58,980 bases of DNA, from the NCBI GenBank assembly GCA_018817505.1, contig JAHITR010000063.1, forward strand, positions 1 through 58,980. The letters are read 5' to 3'. The notes beneath the pieces were generated by a model. The model did not search any database. It was not told where the DNA came from and was given only the letters and a program-made list of their open reading frames with translations. Both the position numbers and the translations under genes were made by a program. The first letter of the stretch is position 1, and each line of letters starts with the position of its first letter. This document shows positions 7,876 through 53,375 of this stretch, in pieces. Origin of the DNA: Candidatus Bipolaricaulota bacterium (GTDB lineage: Bacteria > Bipolaricaulota > Bipolaricaulia > UBA7950 > UBA9294).

Positions 7876-10530
7876 TTAGCCTCTAATGGCGGCTTGAGCT
7901 GCTGCCAAGCGGGCGACGGGCACTCGGTAGGGGCTGCAACTGACGTAGTTGAGGCCCACCTTGTGGCAGAAGGCGATGGAAGAGGGTTCTCCACCGTGTT
8001 CGCCACAGATGCCCAGCTTGATATTGGGTCGGGTCTTGCGTCCCAATTCACAGGCCATGGACACCAGCTTGCCTATGCCAGCCTGATCCAAGACGGCAAA
8101 TGGATCCTTATCGTAGATGCCCATTTCGACATAGTCCTTGAGGAACTTGCCAGCATCATCGCGCGAGAATCCGCATCCCATTTGGGTAAGATCGTTGGTT
8201 CCGAAGCTGAAGAATTCGGCCTCAGTCGCAATCTCATCTGCTGTGACCGCTGCGCGCGGCACTTCGATCATCGTTCCGACGAGGTAGGGGATGTCTGCCT
8301 TGCTCAATCCGTTGGCCGCTAGGACTTCCTCAGCGATCCGAACGGACAATTCCCGCTGAAGCGCCAATTCCTTCACGTGCCCAACGAGTGGAATCATGAT
8401 CTCGGGCTTCACGGACGTGCCCGTTTTGTACACATTGCAGGCAGCTTCCATGATGGCGCGGACCTGCATTTCGGAAATCTCTGGATAGATGATGCCGAGG
8501 CGGCAACCGCGGTGGCCGAGCATGGGGTTGAATTCGTGGAGAGCTTCAACCTTCTCACGGATAGCTTCTGCGGATACGCCCATGACCTTGGCAACGTTTG
8601 CCTGACCTTCGGCGTCATGAGGAAGGAATTCGTGCAAGGGGGGGTCAAGCAGTCGGATGGTGGCTGGCAGTCCCTTCAATGCTTTGAAGATGCCCTCAAA
8701 ATCGCCGCGTTGCATGGGAAGCAATTTGGCCAACGGCTCGCGTCGCCCGGCTTCATCCTTCGCCAAAATCATTTCGCGAACAGCGATAATCCGATCGCCT
8801 TCAAAGAACATATGCTCTGTGCGCGTGAGACCGATGCCCTCGGCACCAAATTTAACCGCGACGCTGGTATCGTGGGGCGTGTCAGCATTGGTGCGAACGC
8901 CGAGGGTTCGGAATTCATCTGCCCACCCAAGCAACGTGCCGAAATTACCCGACACTTCAGGCTCGATGGTCTTCATATCGCCCTTGTAGACAATGCCTGA
9001 CGAACCATTGAGGCTGATCGATTCGCCGACCTTGACGACCTGTCCACCGACTGTGAACTGACCCTTGGCATAGTCGATGTTGAGTTCGCCAGCGCCAGCG
9101 ACACAGCACTTACCCATGCCTCTGGCAACGACCGCAGCATGAGATGTCATTCCGCCGCGGGCTGTCAGAATGCCCTGCGCGGCTACCATTCCGCCGATAT
9201 CTTCGGGGCTGGTCTCGATGCGTACGAGAATGACCTTCTTGCCTGCCGCGGCGGCTGTCTCAGCAGCTTCGGCCGAAAACACGACAGTTCCTGAGGCTCC
9301 GCCTGGGCTGGCTGGCAAACCTTTGGCCAGGATGGGAGCCTTCGCTTCAGCTGCCGGATCGAATGTAGGATGAAGAAGCTGGTCGATTTGCCCCGGTGCG
9401 ACACGCAGCAGGGCCTCCTTCTTGTCAATCATGCCTTCTCCAACCATCTCAACTGCGGTCCGCACGGCTGCAGCTGCCGTCCGCTTACCGTTTCTCGTCT
9501 GCAGCATATAAAGAACACCGTCTTCGATGGTGAATTCGATGTCTTGCATGTCTTTGTAGTGGGACTCGAGTTTGGATCGAATCCCCATCAGTTCAGCGTA
9601 AATGGTGGGCATCTCGTCGTTCAACGTCGAAATGGGTTGTGGCGTACGAATTCCGGCAACGACGTCCTCGCCTTGCGCATTCATCAAATACTCGCCGTAG
9701 AATTCGTTTTGTCCCGTCGCAGGATCGCGAGTGAACGCAACGCCTGTTCCGCAGCCATTGCCCATATTTCCGAAAACCATTGCCTGGACATTGACGGCAG
9801 TTCCGAGCAGTCCCTTGATGTCATTAATCTGTCGATACTTGATCGCGCGAGGGTTGTTCCACGAGCGGAATACGGCTTCGATTGCTCCCCACAGCTGTTC
9901 TGTAGGATCTTGCGGGAACGGGCGACCGGCTCGCTTCTCGATAACGGCTTTGAACCGCGCGACCAGTTCCTTGAGGGCTTCGGCTGAGAGATCGGTGTCG
10001 AGCTTGACGCCCTTCTCTGACTTCACGGCGTCAAGAATCTCTTCAAACGGGTCATGATCGCTCTCAGTTTCTGGTTTGAGATCCATGACAACGTCGCCAT
10101 ACATCTGCAGCAGGCGGCGGTAGGAGTCATAGGCGAATCGCTCATTGCCTGACTTCTTGGCGAGTCCGACTACCGTTTCGTCTGTCAGCCCGAGGTTGAG
10201 GATCGTATCCATCATTCCCGGCATGGACACAAACGCGCCCGATCGAACGGAAACGAGAAGCGGATTCTCCACGCTGCCAAATGCCTTCCCAGTTGCGGCT
10301 TCGAGTTTCTTAAGATTCTTTGCGACTTCCTCGCGTAGGCCTTGAGGATAGGTGCTGCCATGATCTGAGTAGTAGCCGCAGACCTCAGTGGTGATGGTGA
10401 AGCCAGGAGGAACGGGGATTCCCAGCTCAGACATCTCCGCAAGATTGGCCCCCTTGCCACCCAGCAGCTGCTTCATCGTTGCATTTCCGTCAGTTTGATC
10501 CTTGCTGAAGAAGAAAACGTTTTTTCCCAC
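7876..10530 (-). CDS. ppdK: Pyruvate, phosphate dikinase
   Basis: 884 residues, the usual PPDK length. It interconverts pyruvate + ATP + Pi and phosphoenolpyruvate + AMP + PPi, and in anaerobes often serves glycolysis or gluconeogenesis. The N-terminal ATP-grasp part begins [12 protein letters not shown] and has [12 protein letters not shown] and GFTITTEVC. The phospho-histidine swivelling domain carries [16 protein letters not shown] near 455-470, and the C-terminal PEP-binding barrel has the [17 protein letters not shown] signature and CGEHGGEP. The ORF track extends upstream, but AAGGAGG 6 nt before the GTG at 10530 gives the family N-terminus MGKNVFFF. It is the last gene of a run argS-ftsY-ppdK, 37 nt after ftsY. 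Confidence 0.97.
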
Positions 10531-10567
10531 TTCGTGCCTCCTTAAATATCCACTCCGTAGATTTCGT

Positions 10568-11479
10568 CTATTCGCTGTCAAAGAGCGCCTCAGCGAATTC
10601 AGCCGCCGAGAACGCGTGTAAGTCTTCTGCTGTTTCACCAACGCCGATGTGGGTGAGCGGAATGTGCAAAGCATCCCAAATGGCAAGGACAACGCCACCC
10701 TTACCTGTGCCATCTACTTTGGTCAGTACGATGCCTGTCAAGTCGATGGCGTCATGAAAATGATGCGCCTGCGAAATCCCATTTTGTCCAGTGGTCGCGT
10801 CGAGAACAAGGAGACGCTCGTCTGAACCTCGTCCCAGTTTCTTGGCCACCGTACGTTCGATCTTCTTCAATTCCTCCATCAGATTGTGTTTCGTTTGCAG
10901 CCTGCCCGCTGTGTCCACGAAAAGAACGCCGCCGGTTCGCATGGCGTGGTCGACGGCATCGTAGACGACGGCTGAGGGATCCGCGCCCGACTGATGGCGA
11001 ATGAAGTCAACGCCAATCCGGTCAGCCCAAATACCCAATTGTTCAATTGCGGCGGCTCGAAATGTGTCCGCGGCTGCGAATGTCATAGGAATACCTGGAT
11101 GGGCGGCGCGAATCTGCGTGGCCAGCTTCGCAATCGTCGTTGTCTTGCCTGCGCCGTTGACGCCGGTCATGGTGATCACCGTAGGCTGGTTGTCGGAGCG
11201 AATGCAGAGGGGCCTCTCGATTCCTGCCAAGCGTTCCTCAATCACCATTCTTAGGACATGCACAGGATCGTTGTCTTTGCGGGATAATGCGGCCTGCAAT
11301 TCCTTTACAAGGGCCATTGCCGTATGCGCACCGACATCTCCGGCAATGAGTGCTTCTTCGAGTCGCTCAACATCGTCTGCCGACAGTTTCTTTGCACCTC
11401 TCAGCACTTGCGAAATCGAGCCGGTGAATCCTGTTCGCGTCTTGGAGAGCCCAACTTTGAGGCGATCAATCCACGCCAT
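10568..11479 (-). CDS. ftsY: Signal recognition particle receptor FtsY
   Basis: 303 residues with the NG GTPase module of the SRP receptor, which docks ribosome-SRP complexes at the membrane for co-translational insertion. The helical N domain covers about 1-95. The G domain has the P-loop [16 protein letters not shown] near 107-122, [16 protein letters not shown] near 187 and [11 protein letters not shown] near 252. The acidic A domain of E. coli FtsY is absent, as in many bacteria. The true start is ATG 11479 (MAWIDRLK), whose ATG overlaps the argS stop (ATGTAATG) and uses the GGAGG inside the argS 3' end. That implies translational coupling. Confidence 0.96.
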
Positions 11480-13149
11480 TACATTTCCTCCGGTGCGTCC
11501 ATGCCCAAAATGTCGAGGCATTCGCCGAGCGCACCCTGAATCGCTGCCAGCAAAGCCAACCTAGCTGTCTGCAATGCGGTATCGTCAATCAAGACGCGAT
11601 GCTTGTCGTAATAGGCGTGGAATGCACGTGACAGATTGAGACCGTACTCAGCCAAAGCATGCGGTGCGAAATCGAGGGCGGCATGCGCAACCACCTGTGG
11701 AAACTGGTCAAGCATCTTGATCAGATTCAGTTCCTCCAATTCAGCAAGCAGCGACAAATCCGCCTGATTGAAATCGGAAATTCTGCTGGAATCGGTCTTG
11801 CGGAAGATGGATCGGATGCGCGTGTAGGCATACTGGATGTAGGTCGAGGGATTGTCTGAAGACTCTGCCCGAGCCAAATCAAGGTCGAAGTCTAGATGGG
11901 CCTCCGGCTTGCGCGAGATCATGAAGTAGCGAACCACGTCCTTTCCAAGATCTTGTGTCAAATCATGCAAAGTGACGAACCGGCCAGCGCGCGTGGACAT
12001 TTTCTGAATCTGTCCGCCTTCTTTCAGGCTGACGAACTGATGGACGGCATAGCTCAGCCATCCGTCCGGATATCCAAGCAGTCGTAGCGCCGCTTTGACG
12101 CATGTTTGCTCAGCATGATGATCAGCACCCTGCACATCGAGCACATAGTCGAAGCCACGCTCGTGTTTGTCGATATGATAGGCAATATCGACCATGAGGT
12201 AGGTCGGGCGACCATCTGAACGAATGAGAACAGAATCCTTTGCCCCGCCGTGCGCCTCAGATCTCAGCCAGATGGCACCTTCCTGTTCGTAGACTCCGTC
12301 GTTGGCCGTGAGCAGCTGGAGTGTCTGCTCGATCTTGCCTGCCTTGTGCAGATCAGCCTCTGAAAACCAGCGATCGAAGAATACGCCCAATTCGTGAAGG
12401 TCGCGCTTGATCACGTGGGTCATCCGATCGACCGCTGTCCGGCGGAAAAGAGCCTTTGCATCGTCATCGAACTTCGGAAATGGACGCGCCAGGTTCTGCT
12501 TGAGTTCCTCGGCCACTTCAATCAGGTAATCACCTTGGTATCCGTTTTCAGGAATCTCATGAGCGTCTTGGTACAGCTCTTGGTAACGCACCCACAACGA
12601 TTCGGCGAGCAGATCGATCTGCTGACCTTCATCGTTGAAGTAATACTCGCGCTGAACGTTGTAGCCGATGCGTCCATAGAGCGTGGCGAGAACGTCCCCT
12701 AGAACGGCTTGTCTACCGTGGCCGACGGTGAGCGGGCCTGTGGGGTTGGACGAGACGAATTCAATCTGAATGGATTTTCCCTCGCCCAATGTGGAGCTTC
12801 CGAATGGTTCAGACGTGGCCAAGATCCTCTTGAGGGCGTCTTGAACCGCCGCGGGCTTAAGGAATAGATTGAGAAAGCCTGGTCCCGCCAGTTCGACTCG
12901 GGCAACTGGATGGGACGGATCCGTCTCAATCTGATCCGTCAGGGCGCTATGGAGTCTTCCTCCGATGTCACGCGGAGATGCCCTCAGCTTGGATGCGGCC
13001 AGCATGGCGATATTGGATGTGTAGTCTCCGAATTCGGGCCGATCCGTCGGACGAATCTCCAGAAACGCTGCCGCGGGCTCGTCTCCGAACGCTCTGCAAT
13101 AGGCTGAGCGAATCACTCCCAGAATGAGGGTTTCAAGATGTGTCAACAT
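11479..13149 (-). CDS. argS: Arginyl-tRNA synthetase
   Basis: 556 residues, class I synthetase. Visible are the N-terminal Add-1 domain, the HIGH-equivalent NPTGPLTVGHGRQAVLGD near 130-147, the YHIDKHERGFDYVLDVQGAD segment, the KMSK-equivalent QKMSTRAGR near 380, and the C-terminal DALR anticodon-binding domain (YAYTRIRSIFRK onward). It charges tRNA-Arg. The ribosome site before ATG 13149 is weak, so translation may depend on upstream readthrough from the spoVS remnant, 24 nt away on the same strand. Its TAA overlaps the ftsY start. Confidence 0.96.
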   Translation of the reverse strand: MLTHLETLILGVIRSAYCRAFGDEPAAAFLEIRPTDRPEFGDYTSNIAMLAASKLRASPRDIGGRLHSALTDQIETDPSHPVARVELAGPGFLNLFLKPAAVQDALKRILATSEPFGSSTLGEGKSIQIEFVSSNPTGPLTVGHGRQAVLGDVLATLYGRIGYNVQREYYFNDEGQQIDLLAESLWVRYQELYQDAHEIPENGYQGDYLIEVAEELKQNLARPFPKFDDDAKALFRRTAVDRMTHVIKRDLHELGVFFDRWFSEADLHKAGKIEQTLQLLTANDGVYEQEGAIWLRSEAHGGAKDSVLIRSDGRPTYLMVDIAYHIDKHERGFDYVLDVQGADHHAEQTCVKAALRLLGYPDGWLSYAVHQFVSLKEGGQIQKMSTRAGRFVTLHDLTQDLGKDVVRYFMISRKPEAHLDFDLDLARAESSDNPSTYIQYAYTRIRSIFRKTDSSRISDFNQADLSLLAELEELNLIKMLDQFPQVVAHAALDFAPHALAEYGLNLSRAFHAYYDKHRVLIDDTALQTARLALLAAIQGALGECLDILGMDAPEEM

Positions 13150-13173: not shown

Positions 13174-13431
13174 CTATCTTTCGACGATGAAGCGAATGCC
13201 CGTTTTTTTGCTCGCTGTTGATCGACAGCTCCATGAATCCGGGAATGACTTTGATTGATGCCTCATCATGTTCGACCAGACGACGGGCAATGGAGATGGC
13301 CTTGATCGTTTGATTGACCGCTCCTGCTCCGATGGCATGAATCTCGACCACACCGTGATCTTCAAGGGCACCGGCAATGGCACCTACGCGGCGTTAGGAC
13401 TGGAGCGGGCAACAATCCAAAGTACGACCAT
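13174..13431 (-). pseudogene. spoVS: SpoVS-like gene with two compensating frameshifts
   Basis: SpoVS is an 86-residue Alba-like protein found in sporeformers and in several non-sporulating phyla. Here GGAGG precedes ATG 13431, which reads MVVLWIVARSSPNAA and meets TAG. The -1 frame continues VGAIAGALEDHGVVEIHAIG, AGAVNQTIKAISIARRLVEH and VIPGFMELSINSEQK. After a seven-A run the original frame resumes with TGIRFIVER and TAG. Joined, these give a full-length SpoVS. One base appears missing at GCCGCG|TAGG and one extra A present in CAAAAAAAC. It could be a young pseudogene, assembly error or, less likely, programmed recoding. It is first in the argS-ftsY-ppdK direction. Confidence 0.75.
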
Positions 13432-13591
13432 AGAGCCTCCTGTGTGGACGGTCCCCATGCGTATTGGTACGATCTTGGAAGTATATCGATCCGGGAACGG
13501 AGGGACAAACCTGTTTACCTAGAGCCAAATGTTTTGTTTCACCCTCCGCGACGAGCCTTCACAACTTCTTCAAATCCGGAGCATACAACTA

Positions 13592-15391
13592 ATGACTATG
13601 GCAACAACCAACGACAAAAGGGATTTTCGCCGCCAGATTTTCTTTTCGCTGGGCGGGATCGTGATTGGACTTGCCGTGGCCGGCCTGCTGGCTTTGCTCA
13701 TTAACAATGTGGTGGAGCCGACCATGCAAGTTGAGACGCAGGATCTTGTTGAGTTTCCTGGAGACGTGTTCTCCATTTGGTATCACACGGAATCCCCAAA
13801 CATGAGCACCAGATCCGCGTTGCTTGATCGCCTTGAGGACAGCTTGAGCGACCTGTTGATTCGACTTGATGTGACGATAGATGACATTCCACTTCCGATC
13901 GATGTGCTCGTTCATGATAGCCCCGAGATGATGCAGCAAACGACGATGCGCAGAAAATCAGGCAGCGCGATGTATTCGTTCTACTCGGTGATCGATCTTC
14001 TTCAAGGCGAGGACCCCTATTCGCGTTTGTCCGAATTGGTGCTTGCGTTTGGATGGGGGCGCTGCAGCTCGCAAGTGCTCTACAGGGGTATGCTGATGAA
14101 TATCTCAGCGGCAAACGAGGATTTCCATGTTCCCGTTGCAGCTGCTCCAGCGCGCCTTCTTTATTCTCTGGAAGACCTGCTCATGCTTGAGAAGATCGAT
14201 GCATTCGAGGACACCTTGTATCAACGATACCAGTCTCCCTTCTCGGCCCGACTCGCGATGGGAACCCTTGAAGGACTCAGCGAGTTTCGCTCCATGTTTA
14301 CCACGGTCGGCGACTCGGCAGAGTACGGGATCGCAGATCTTCAGGCGGCATCGCTTGTTCAGTATCTTATAGGCTGTGCGGGAGGGTTGGAGGCGTTCCG
14401 GGAGGTTTGGGGACCGGGAACGTCTGAAGCACTGATTACACGATTAGCCTGCGGCCCGTGGAGTGACTTGTTTGACGATTGGCTAACCGTTGCTCGATCG
14501 GTAGATCCATCCACGGCAGCGTATCAACGCTACAGAGCGCGATTCCTGTATGAGGCAGGCGATATTGAGGCTGCTGCTCAAATTACTGAAACGTGGCGTC
14601 CCAACGATTTGCCGAGCGCGGATAGCGTGTTGGCGGTTCGTGCCCAGCTTGCGGCAGGCCATTTTGAAGCCGCCTCTCGCTTCGCGAATGCTGCCGAGCC
14701 CGGCATATCCGAGGTTCTCGTGGATTGGGTTGCCGTCTACAATGGTTGGAAGCAAGTGTCTGATGGCACATTGACTGTATTCAGCAGAGGAACAAAGGCT
14801 GAGTTGGATGCACGGCTTCAGGAAGTGAAGGCGGCCTACGTCCGTGCAGCAACCTTCTTCGGATTTTCAGAGAGCGAACTTCCCGAGCATGCGTCCGTTT
14901 TCTATTACGGCTCGGCCAGCACTCGGGATACGGGTGAAGCCATACTTCCTGCAGCGGATATTCACAAAGCGATCTGGCACTTCTGCCCAGAAGACAACAT
15001 GGTCGTTGAGTTCGCTGGATCGATGCCTTCGTTTGTTACCATGAAAAGCTCAGCGTCCACCTTGTTGCGCCGTGGGCTAACGGCAGTGCTCACAGTGGAT
15101 CGAGATGAACTGATCTCGCGCGGATGCGAAATGCTTCGGTTAGCGGAGTGGACGCCTTTGTGGCGCATTGGATTTGGTGGCATGCCGGATCGACCTTTTG
15201 AAACCGAGACGGGACTCATGATTGGATATATCTTGGACACGTTTGGTTCTGACGTCGTGCGTGGTCTCTGGATTGCCACTGCGAGGATTGGAGGCGGTGT
15301 TTCTCTGGATACTGCCATTCAGAGCGCGCTGGGCACGTCACGAACGGAGATCGAGCGAACGCTGGTTGATTCAGTGCTCATCTGTGATTAA
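13592..15391 (+). CDS. Membrane-anchored protein of unknown function
   Basis: 599 residues from ATG 13592; the extra residues of the ORF track upstream overlap the promoter side of spoVS. There is one N-terminal transmembrane helix (about 20-42, SLGGIVIGLAVAGLLALLIN), so the remaining 550 residues probably face outward. The central part, about 310-400, is alanine-rich and helical (DIEAAAQITETW, LAAGHFEAASRFANAA), resembling degenerate TPR hairpins. The order suggests a helical solenoid between two globular parts, as in gluzincin peptidase-MA proteins, but I see no HExxH. I do not recognise the family. It ends 16 nt before the strong promoter of the transporter operon. Confidence 0.7.
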   Translation: MTMATTNDKRDFRRQIFFSLGGIVIGLAVAGLLALLINNVVEPTMQVETQDLVEFPGDVFSIWYHTESPNMSTRSALLDRLEDSLSDLLIRLDVTIDDIPLPIDVLVHDSPEMMQQTTMRRKSGSAMYSFYSVIDLLQGEDPYSRLSELVLAFGWGRCSSQVLYRGMLMNISAANEDFHVPVAAAPARLLYSLEDLLMLEKIDAFEDTLYQRYQSPFSARLAMGTLEGLSEFRSMFTTVGDSAEYGIADLQAASLVQYLIGCAGGLEAFREVWGPGTSEALITRLACGPWSDLFDDWLTVARSVDPSTAAYQRYRARFLYEAGDIEAAAQITETWRPNDLPSADSVLAVRAQLAAGHFEAASRFANAAEPGISEVLVDWVAVYNGWKQVSDGTLTVFSRGTKAELDARLQEVKAAYVRAATFFGFSESELPEHASVFYYGSASTRDTGEAILPAADIHKAIWHFCPEDNMVVEFAGSMPSFVTMKSSASTLLRRGLTAVLTVDRDELISRGCEMLRLAEWTPLWRIGFGGMPDRPFETETGLMIGYILDTFGSDVVRGLWIATARIGGGVSLDTAIQSALGTSRTEIERTLVDSVLICD

Positions 15392-43764: not shown

Positions 43765-44145
43765 GATGATCCTCCCCAGAATCGAACCTCAAGCACATGT
43801 CCCACACTGATAGGTGGAACTGTCGGTAAATGCAAATCGAACGAGTCCCCCAATCAAACACCTGGACAAGCAGTGAGTTTCACCCAGTGGCTCACATCGT
43901 GCGAGAGGGATTCGTGAGCAAAATCAATTCTAGGGGGATTTTCGAGCGATCTGAAGGTGGCTCATGCGAGATGTCTAGACTGCGAAGAAAGGTGGAACAA
44001 TTAGTTCGTAGGTCATTGACAAGTGAACCGAGGTGAAACGGAGGCAGCGCCCTCAAACGGGGCAGCTTCCGACCACAAGATGGATTTAAAGATTGCGGTG
44101 GACGGTCCATCGCATGGTTTCAATTCCTCAGAGAAGGTATCTACT
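43765..44145. other. Gene-free stretch upstream of the riboswitch region
   Basis: About 380 nt between the divergent alpha-2-macroglobulin and the riboswitch leader. Small ORFs on both strands have no recognisable content. It must hold promoters in both directions; a TTGACA at about 44017 lacks a convincing -10 box. I see nothing else definable. Confidence 0.5.
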
Positions 44146-44220
44146 AAAGGCAAACCGATCGAAAGGTCGGGACGCAAAGCTACGGACCTTAAAGACCAGA
44201 GCTCATCGTCTGAGTTCTCA
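44146..44220 (+). promoter_or_regulatory. Partial c-di-GMP-I (GEMM) aptamer, 5' core
   Basis: AAAGGCAAACCGATCGAAAG and then GTCGGGACGCAAAGCTACGG match the GEMM-I core: GGCAAACC, a P2 stem capped by a GAAA tetraloop (CCGATC/GGTCGG), and the GACGCAAAGCTACGG segment with the ligand-contact bases. The usual 3' strand (..AGCCGGGTTGCC) is not recognisable; instead a GAGCTCA/TGAGTTC hairpin follows. It is therefore a half-aptamer or a strongly diverged copy. Confidence 0.6.
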
Positions 44221-44223
44221 TGC

Positions 44224-44325
44224 AAGGGCAAACCCGGGGTGACCCGGGGACGCAAAGCTACGGATCTTTCGAGCGCATTGCGCTCGCGAATGCGAAGCAT
44301 TCGATAGACAGCCGAGTTGCCGCAG
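44224..44325 (+). promoter_or_regulatory. c-di-GMP-I (GEMM) riboswitch
   Basis: AGGGCAAACCCGGGGTGACC, then CGGGGACGCAAAGCTACGGA. The P2 stem CCCGGG/CCCGGG is capped by the GNRA loop GTGA; the GACGCAAAGCTACGG core is intact; a variable region with two small hairpins follows (GAGCGCATTGCGCTC, CGAATGCGAAGCATTCG); and the 3' strand GATAGACAGCCGAGTTGCCG matches the family end. It senses cyclic di-GMP and should control the exported protein whose ATG lies about 60 nt downstream. No terminator is obvious between them, so translational control is more likely. Confidence 0.88.
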
Positions 44326-44383
44326 CGTCTGATGGTGGCCGAGTCGCTAGATGCACTCAACAACCACTTCAGGAGGTGCTTTC

Positions 44384-44857
44384 ATGAGGACGCTTAAAGG
44401 TTTCGGTATTGTGATGTTGGTGGCAGTTTTGGTCGTAGGGATTGCGGTCATGGTTTCTGCGAAAAACGGCACAGAAGCAGCGGTTTCAGTTAATGCTTCG
44501 TTCTCGATTCCGTCTTGGATCTCCTTGTCGGCTGTTGGGAATGGCAACGTCAGCTTCTCAGATATTGCTGGTCCCGGATCCTATGCCGCTTCCAATGGAA
44601 CGCGGCTTCAGGTTCTCAGCACAACGAGCTGGACGATCTCCGGCGAGATTCTTTGGTCTGAATCGAAAATGCCTGAAGGCGCAAGTCAGCAGACGATCGA
44701 CAATGCGCTTGAGCGCTCCTATGACAAGACGTCGGGTAGCTGGGGAATCCACACGGTGAACGTTTCGTATCAGTTCAACGTTGAAGTCGACGACATGGCC
44801 AATATGCCTGAAGGCGACTACAGCCTGGTCATCCAGTACACGGCAACCACGGACTAG
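44384..44857 (+). CDS. Exported beta-rich surface protein under c-di-GMP riboswitch
   Basis: 157 residues. A signal peptide (FGIVMLVAVLVVGIAVMVSA, about 7-26) precedes a compact beta-sandwich-like domain: AAVSVNASFSIPSWISLSAV, GNVSFSDIAGPGSYAASNGT, LQVLSTTSWTISGEI and the closing YSLVIQYTATTD. The layout resembles camelysin/WxL-like or minor surface-layer proteins, but I cannot name the family. AGGAGG lies 7 nt before ATG 44384 and could pair with GCACTC upstream, hiding the ribosome site. Regulation by c-di-GMP suggests a role in attachment or biofilm. A hairpin terminator follows. Confidence 0.8.
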   Translation: MRTLKGFGIVMLVAVLVVGIAVMVSAKNGTEAAVSVNASFSIPSWISLSAVGNGNVSFSDIAGPGSYAASNGTRLQVLSTTSWTISGEILWSESKMPEGASQQTIDNALERSYDKTSGSWGIHTVNVSYQFNVEVDDMANMPEGDYSLVIQYTATTD

Positions 44858-51980: not shown

Positions 51981-52663
51981 AGGAGAACCTCTCGGAGCCG
52001 TGTTGTTTGAGACGTGACGATTGTGGGTTGAATGGTAGGGATCACACGATCTTCATCGTGCTTGATCCAAGCGGTATACATACCTGCGTTGTGGGCACCC
52101 ACGATGTCTGCATCATAATTGTCTCCCACGAACAGTGAATGTTTCGCTGGCACATCCAATTCATTCAGCAACAACCGAAATGCTTGCGGATCCGGCTTGT
52201 AGACGCCAACGTCGCCAGCGACGATGATGGCATCGAACAGGGTGTCGAATCCGAGTGCCTTGAGCTTGTCCCACTGAAGAAACGTCGGGCCATTGGTAAA
52301 CAATCCGAGTCGATAGGTTGATCTGAGATCAGCCAGAAACCCATCGATGCCCGGATAGGCGAGAACTCCAGATTCACGGCGTATGTCATCATAGGCTTGT
52401 GATACCTTGAGGATTGTCGACGCATCGGAGAATCCCTGATCCTCGAACAGCGTGGTCATGATTTGAAGGCGTATTGTGTCGATTGACTCCGCGGTTCGTT
52501 CCAACTCAAGCCAACGAGTGTTGTAGCGATCAGCGGCTGTCGTCAGGTCTCCCAAACAATCGAGCGGACATGAGGCGCGACTCAGCGCCTGCTCCAAAGC
52601 CTGCTGTGTGGAAAGGGGATAATAGCTCAGCGTCCAGTCCAAATCGAAGCAAACCGCCTGCAA
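51977..52663 (-). CDS. HAD family hydrolase (phosphatase)
   Basis: About 228 residues. Motif I is VCFDLDWTLSYYP with the nucleophile Asp, motif II is LGLFTNGPTFLQWDK, motif III the Lys in VGVYKPDPQAF, and motif IV GDNYDADIVGAHNAGM. It is a haloacid-dehalogenase-type phosphatase of the subgroup with a helical cap; the substrate is unknown. The ORF track runs into the divergent rsmD gene. The start is doubtful: I use TTG 52663 just before the first strand, while ATG 52771 would add 36 residues and overlap the rsmD ribosome site. Confidence 0.8.
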   Translation of the reverse strand: MQAVCFDLDWTLSYYPLSTQQALEQALSRASCPLDCLGDLTTAADRYNTRWLELERTAESIDTIRLQIMTTLFEDQGFSDASTILKVSQAYDDIRRESGVLAYPGIDGFLADLRSTYRLGLFTNGPTFLQWDKLKALGFDTLFDAIIVAGDVGVYKPDPQAFRLLLNELDVPAKHSLFVGDNYDADIVGAHNAGMYTAWIKHDEDRVIPTIQPTIVTSQTTRLREVLL

Positions 52664-52772
52664 TTTCTCCGCGAATGGTTGAATGATAGGGCGCCCCTCT
52701 CTTATGCTTAGTTGAAGCCGCGAACGCAAACGATCATAGCAACGCGGATTCAAAGCTGCAAGGGGGCGCATT

Positions 52773-53375
52773 GTGCGCATCATCAGTGGAAGTCGCAAAG
52801 GGCGCAAGCTCGTGGAATGGGAGCAAGAAGGCATTCGCCCAATGCGCGATTTCGTGCGCAGCGCCCTGTTCAGTATTCTCAATGACTTCGTGCCTGATGC
52901 CGCATTCCTCGATCTGTGCTGTGGAACAGGCAGCGTCGGTCTTGAGGCCCTGTCGCGAGGAGCCTCTTCTTGCCTGTTCGTTGATCTTTCTCCGGATTCC
53001 TGTGGCATTGTGCGGCGCAATCTTGAAGCGCTCGATTTCCTGACCGAAGGACGTGTCATCGAAGGGGATGCCGTCGCTGTGATCGGCGAGCTCGGACGTC
53101 GAGCTAGACGATTTGACGTCATTTTCATTGGCCCTCCCTACTATCAGGAGCTGGTACCTGCCATCCTGAGCGCGTTGGCCGATGGTCGGCTCCTGGCCGA
53201 GGATTTTGTGGTCGTCGCTGAGATTCATCACAAGGAGACTGCGGCCGATGCCTATGGCGTCCTCGAACGAGTCGACACTCGACGCTATGGCGACAATCAA
53301 CTGTTGTTCTATCGTCGTGCAGACGGCCAGCCGATAAGTAAACCACAGGAGGAATCAGCATGGCGGAACGAATGA
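52773..53375 (+). CDS. rsmD: 16S rRNA (guanine(966)-N(2))-methyltransferase RsmD-like
   Basis: 200 residues from GTG 52773 after AAGGGGG. The N-terminus MRIISGSRKGRKL and the SAM-binding motif FLDLCCGTGSVGLEALSRGA near 46-65 are typical of RsmD, which methylates G966 in 16S rRNA. RPMRDFVRSALFSIL matches the family's RPTxxxVREALFNIL element. Motif IV, normally (D/N)PPY/F, reads IFIGPPYYQE near 118-126, so the acidic/amide residue that binds the target amine is a glycine. It overlaps surE by 16 nt. Another N-methyltransferase activity or a weakened enzyme is possible. Confidence 0.85.
   Translation: MRIISGSRKGRKLVEWEQEGIRPMRDFVRSALFSILNDFVPDAAFLDLCCGTGSVGLEALSRGASSCLFVDLSPDSCGIVRRNLEALDFLTEGRVIEGDAVAVIGELGRRARRFDVIFIGPPYYQELVPAILSALADGRLLAEDFVVVAEIHHKETAADAYGVLERVDTRRYGDNQLLFYRRADGQPISKPQEESAWRNE

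Follow-up and report, generated by a model that had tools for sequence, protein, structure and literature searches.

In the 58,980-nucleotide stretch of Candidatus Bipolaricaulota DNA analyzed here (the window), the spoVS gene upstream of argS (spoVS-B) has a broken reading frame and is altered at residues that are invariant in its intact orthologues. The neighboring genes are intact, and the same gene is eroding in parallel in related genomes. We consider it highly probable that spoVS-B is a young pseudogene, with SpoVS function having become dispensable several times independently, both SpoVS copies of the genome drifting, the promoter being kept for argS-ftsY, and the two copies acting together. 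The window copy taken as a single pseudogene is ordinary; what is new, to a modest degree, is the recurrent joint loss of two SpoVS paralogues. Among the papers searched, none joined Bipolaricaulota and SpoVS.

Frame breaks and altered residues in the window copy

The source genome (G000) is a MAG of 2.66 Mb that is 92% complete and 5% contaminated. The window corresponds to contig 136 of this assembly and is mostly syntenic with contig 4 of the congener G004. The SpoVS sequence was located on the minus strand at positions 13431–13174 with an ATG at 13431, and it can be read only with two changes of frame (Table 1). The original prediction held that a -1 shift at GCCGCG/TAG and a +1 shift at seven A's were required, and that the first and last segments share one frame. 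Frameshift-aware alignment against the orthologue consensus bore out both statements: it identified just two events, the loss of one base and the insertion of one base, and the terminal TGIRFIVER-stop was found back in frame 1. Owing to these two breaks, a full-length open frame of approximately 86 codons is absent from the window copy, which is not translatable as one protein.

Table 1. Coordinates of spoVS-B, its frame breaks, and the surrounding operon features in the window.
Feature	Position	Strand	Description
sigma-70-type promoter of the spoVS-B/argS operon (putative)	13480..13508	-	TTGTCC-17-TATACT
Ribosome-binding-like site 5' of the spoVS ATG	13436..13440	-	sequence GGAGG
spoVS-B segment 1	13390..13431	-	14 codons, MVVLWIVARSSPNA, frame 1, poorly conserved
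First frame break, GCG TAG	13384..13389	-	one base missing (~13387-13384) compared with orthologues
spoVS-B segment 2, conserved SpoVS core	13204..13387	-	VGAIAGALEDHGVVEIHAIGAGAVNQTIKAISIARRLVEHDEASIKVIPGFMELSINSEQK, frame 2; PF04232 E = 4.1e-15
Second frame break, A7 run	13203..13209	-	one extra base compared with orthologues
spoVS-B segment 3	13174..13203	-	TGIRFIVER-stop, frame 1 again
argS, downstream operon gene	11479..13149	-	intact
ftsY	10568..11521	-	intact
Pyruvate phosphate dikinase-like gene	7876..10713	-	intact

SpoVS is a small protein of the DNA/RNA-binding type, and the middle segment of the window copy and the G004 orthologue both match its family (PF04232). With a score cut-off of 24, the middle ORF alone scored 55.7 bits (E value, 4e-15), and the best frame segment scored 69 bits. 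The G004 orthologue also aligned over residues 3–84 to PDB entry 2EH1 (E value, 8e-17), the SpoVS-related protein of Thermus thermophilus (PDB 2EH1/2EK0) that belongs to the Alba-like superfamily. When the locus was searched against plasmids, no match was obtained.

The sequence between the shifts had been described as well conserved, which proved accurate; the C-terminus is well conserved too, but the first 14 codons are not. Segment 1 carries the changes K5W, V6I, A7V, and S14A, all at sites that are invariant in all intact orthologues. In comparison with the intact spoVS-B of G004, which shares 69% protein identity with the G000 copy, pN was 0.32 in segment 1 and 0.15 in the core, a twofold nonsynonymous density, and all nine residues of segment 3 were identical. 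Over the gene as a whole, 7 of 29 invariant sites were changed, one of which (V15) is the frame break itself, compared with 0–5 in intact copies; invariant sites were defined on 17 intact orthologues, and intact copies were scored leaving out one at a time. These values indicate that constraint on the remaining spoVS-B sequence is relaxed. Since most of the SpoVS core is conserved, the decay must be recent.

The housekeeping run after spoVS-B had been reported as otherwise intact, and this was confirmed for argS, ftsY, and the pyruvate phosphate dikinase-like gene. The window's family shares the order spoVS-B, argS, ftsY with other families of the phylum; a second paralogue, spoVS-A, follows rny. 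Taken in G000 alone, the promoter match was equaled by 2.8% of shuffles; the same element (TTGACA or near, a spacing of 16–17 bp, and TATACT) occupies the equivalent position in most relatives, including most of those with an eroded spoVS-B. It is present in G006, G017, and G025 despite their erased spoVS-B, at 207, 277, and 142 bp from argS, respectively, compared with approximately 370–490 bp in intact relatives. At the threshold used, no such element was detected in G012, G020, G004, or G007. The simplest reading is that the operon promoter is kept by selection for argS while spoVS-B wears away. Single-base indels, a retained promoter, and intact essential downstream genes are also seen in other bacterial pseudogenes that head operons; nothing fundamental differs from these, and all that sets spoVS-B apart is that its decay recurs in parallel within one family. 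A divergently transcribed 620-aa ORF (13529–15391, plus strand), which gave no Pfam match, is conserved beside spoVS-B in G004 (55% identity) and G029 (32% identity).

Parallel decay of spoVS-B and spoVS-A in relatives

Intact spoVS-B was found at the same locus in G004 and at about 15 more loci; most relatives, and most of the phylum, retain it there. These orthologues carry neither indel and need no shift, which answers the question of whether relatives share the window's frame changes. In other genomes of the family, the gene is eroded to different degrees. The G023 copy has one indel and changes at 4 of 29 invariant sites, and some damaged copies, including this one (contig coverage, 3.26), come from low-coverage MAGs. 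The G029 copy has in-frame deletions and has lost both its ATG and its stop, what is left in G017 is a C-terminal fragment that carries an additional shift, G025 retains 11 residues (DKTGMRSIIEK), and G006 retains a trace. Nothing recognizable as spoVS-B was found upstream of argS in G012 and G020. An apparent break in spoVS of G085 was discarded as a scaffold gap (N run). Recent decay, one of the options initially proposed for the window copy, is thus supported by intact syntenic orthologues, altered invariant sites, and graded erosion in relatives.

A search for an intact spoVS elsewhere in the source genome did reveal a second copy, but this is the different, rny-linked paralogue spoVS-A, which is split over two contig ends and altered at invariant sites. 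Its first half ends contig C3 and its second half ends contig C40; the break possibly reflects strain variation or low coverage at the gene. Changes were observed at 5 of 23 invariant sites, compared with 0–3 of 29–32 in intact copies. Because the G000 copy is open as far as seen, with its middle lying at the contig break, the statement that both paralogues are damaged is weakest for G000. In relatives, frameshifts or stops interrupt spoVS-A in G019, G025, G030, G031, and G017; the gene is heavily altered in G012 and G029, has an internal deletion in G026, and is missing from G006, G020, and G023. Most damaged copies of spoVS-A carry another residue in place of the invariant Asn21 (H, S, F, Y, S, Y, K), and these replacements span all four of the clades described below.

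A tree of RNase Y and ArgS requires a minimum of four losses for each paralogue. The four clades concerned are the same for both, namely G000 within its genus, the genera g3 and g9, and three of the four species in genus g7. Where both places were readable in genomes of the family, both copies were intact in 13 and both damaged in 8, and an intact spoVS-A with a damaged spoVS-B was found in none. The sole mixed case is G030, in which spoVS-A is frameshifted and spoVS-B is open with five changes at otherwise invariant sites. An independent-pairs sign test gave p values of 0.125–0.25, with significance out of reach for n = 4 pairs. Of the 45 genomes outside the window's family with a completeness of 85% or more, 37 have two SpoVS copies, eight have none, and none has exactly one; the four one-copy genomes outside the family are all less complete than 85%.

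The two-or-none copy number and the joint decay suggest that the pair behaves as a functional unit and not as a mutual backup. Redundancy, by which one copy is lost since the other remains, was rejected because exactly one copy was never seen outside the family at this level of completeness and because both copies decay together. YmdB (PF13277) is the usual neighbor of rny and spoVS in Firmicutes. None of the 33 genomes in the window's family contains it, and it therefore cannot explain the SpoVS losses. In addition, no SpoVS was found in the Bipolaricaulota families f2, f3 (nearly all), f8, and f9.

Alternative explanations

Two assembly or sequencing errors in a gene that is intact in the living organism would also produce the observed frame changes. 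One break sits in a homopolymer (A7), the net frame is restored, the source genome is a fragmented MAG of 241 contigs, and scaffold or contig breaks do occur at SpoVS copies (the N run in G085 and the contig ends at spoVS-A of G000). Nevertheless, we regard this explanation as unlikely. In about 42–45 kb of coding DNA syntenic with G004, no further frame break was upheld on inspection, and the probability that both indels would fall within the 258 bp of spoVS-B by random placement is approximately 4e-5. A uniform rate of random error would not place two indels in this gene alone, so the clustering exceeds chance. Indel errors also leave unexplained the missense changes at invariant sites of segment 1, and the same gene is truly eroding in relatives, in some to remnants. 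Apparent frame breaks at 44152–44854 and 52589–53318 were dismissed because the sequences concerned are a riboswitch-bearing leader and intergenic DNA, both by chance open in G004. The leader contains two tandem c-di-GMP-I riboswitches at 44139–44325 on the plus strand (RF01051 at 44139–44216 and RF03167 at 44218–44325) and precedes a gene for a small secreted-looking protein at about 44402–44854.

Translation of the locus in its present state could be envisaged in two ways. A functional shortened SpoVS-like protein of 72 aa could be made from the middle frame (GTG at 13351 to 13133), which is open and matches PF04232 over residues 2–51. Such a product is very improbable: it would be missing the first strand of the SpoVS family and the greater part of the first helix, its C-terminus is frameshifted and unrelated, and no relative has such a form. 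Programmed recoding, in which the ribosome would yield full SpoVS by shifting -1 at GCG/TAG and +1 at the A run, would agree with the conserved SpoVS core, and the A_AAA_AAC within the zero-frame CAA AAA AAC belongs to a known class of slippery heptamers. This heptamer would give -1, the opposite of the +1 shift needed. GCG TAG is not slippery and offers no re-pairing, intact orthologues need no shift, relatives are without such sites, and residues are decaying; no shift site of the right direction conserved in relatives was found. We are aware of no other case in which two opposite shifts follow each other within 86 codons, and we give recoding almost no credence. A young pseudogene accordingly remains our preferred explanation for spoVS-B.

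A possible paired function of the SpoVS copies

For spoVS-B to have decayed in this manner, SpoVS function would have become dispensable independently several times, and spoVS-A and spoVS-B would then both have drifted. The 5' leader and promoter would have been retained because they drive argS-ftsY. Their joint decay may mean that neither copy works on its own or that both serve the same process. The paired loss would reflect copies acting together, in the same pathway or as a heterodimer of the Alba-like fold, and not as a mutual backup.

Two SpoVS paralogues, spoVS1 and spoVS2, have been described in Bacillus thuringiensis, where their effects are partly overlapping and partly distinct and one copy can partly compensate for the other (PMC8510167). 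Bipolaricaulota genomes likewise carry two SpoVS paralogues, but unlike those of B. thuringiensis, these are divergent, adjoin rny and argS, and share one fate, being either both retained or both lost. A paired function of SpoVS-A and SpoVS-B is plausible because SpoVS has been placed in the Alba superfamily (PMC11621453) and two partly overlapping copies are known in B. thuringiensis; the SpoVS-A/B heterodimer is only a hypothesis. We tentatively propose, while leaning slightly against it, that the rny-linked and argS-linked copies are obligate partners, perhaps as an Alba-like heterodimer, in a non-sporulation process, and that both die when this process is dropped; on this view, the process was abandoned on four or more occasions in one family and probably on several further occasions in the phylum.

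The decay series presents natural stages of one gene at one syntenic place. To our knowledge, Bipolaricaulota is not a phylum known to sporulate, and the all-or-none SpoVS pair offers a handle on the role of SpoVS outside endospore formers. The trait that the four clades lost along with the pair would be the process that SpoVS serves, and comparison of gene content between sister species makes such a non-sporulation role of the SpoVS pair testable.
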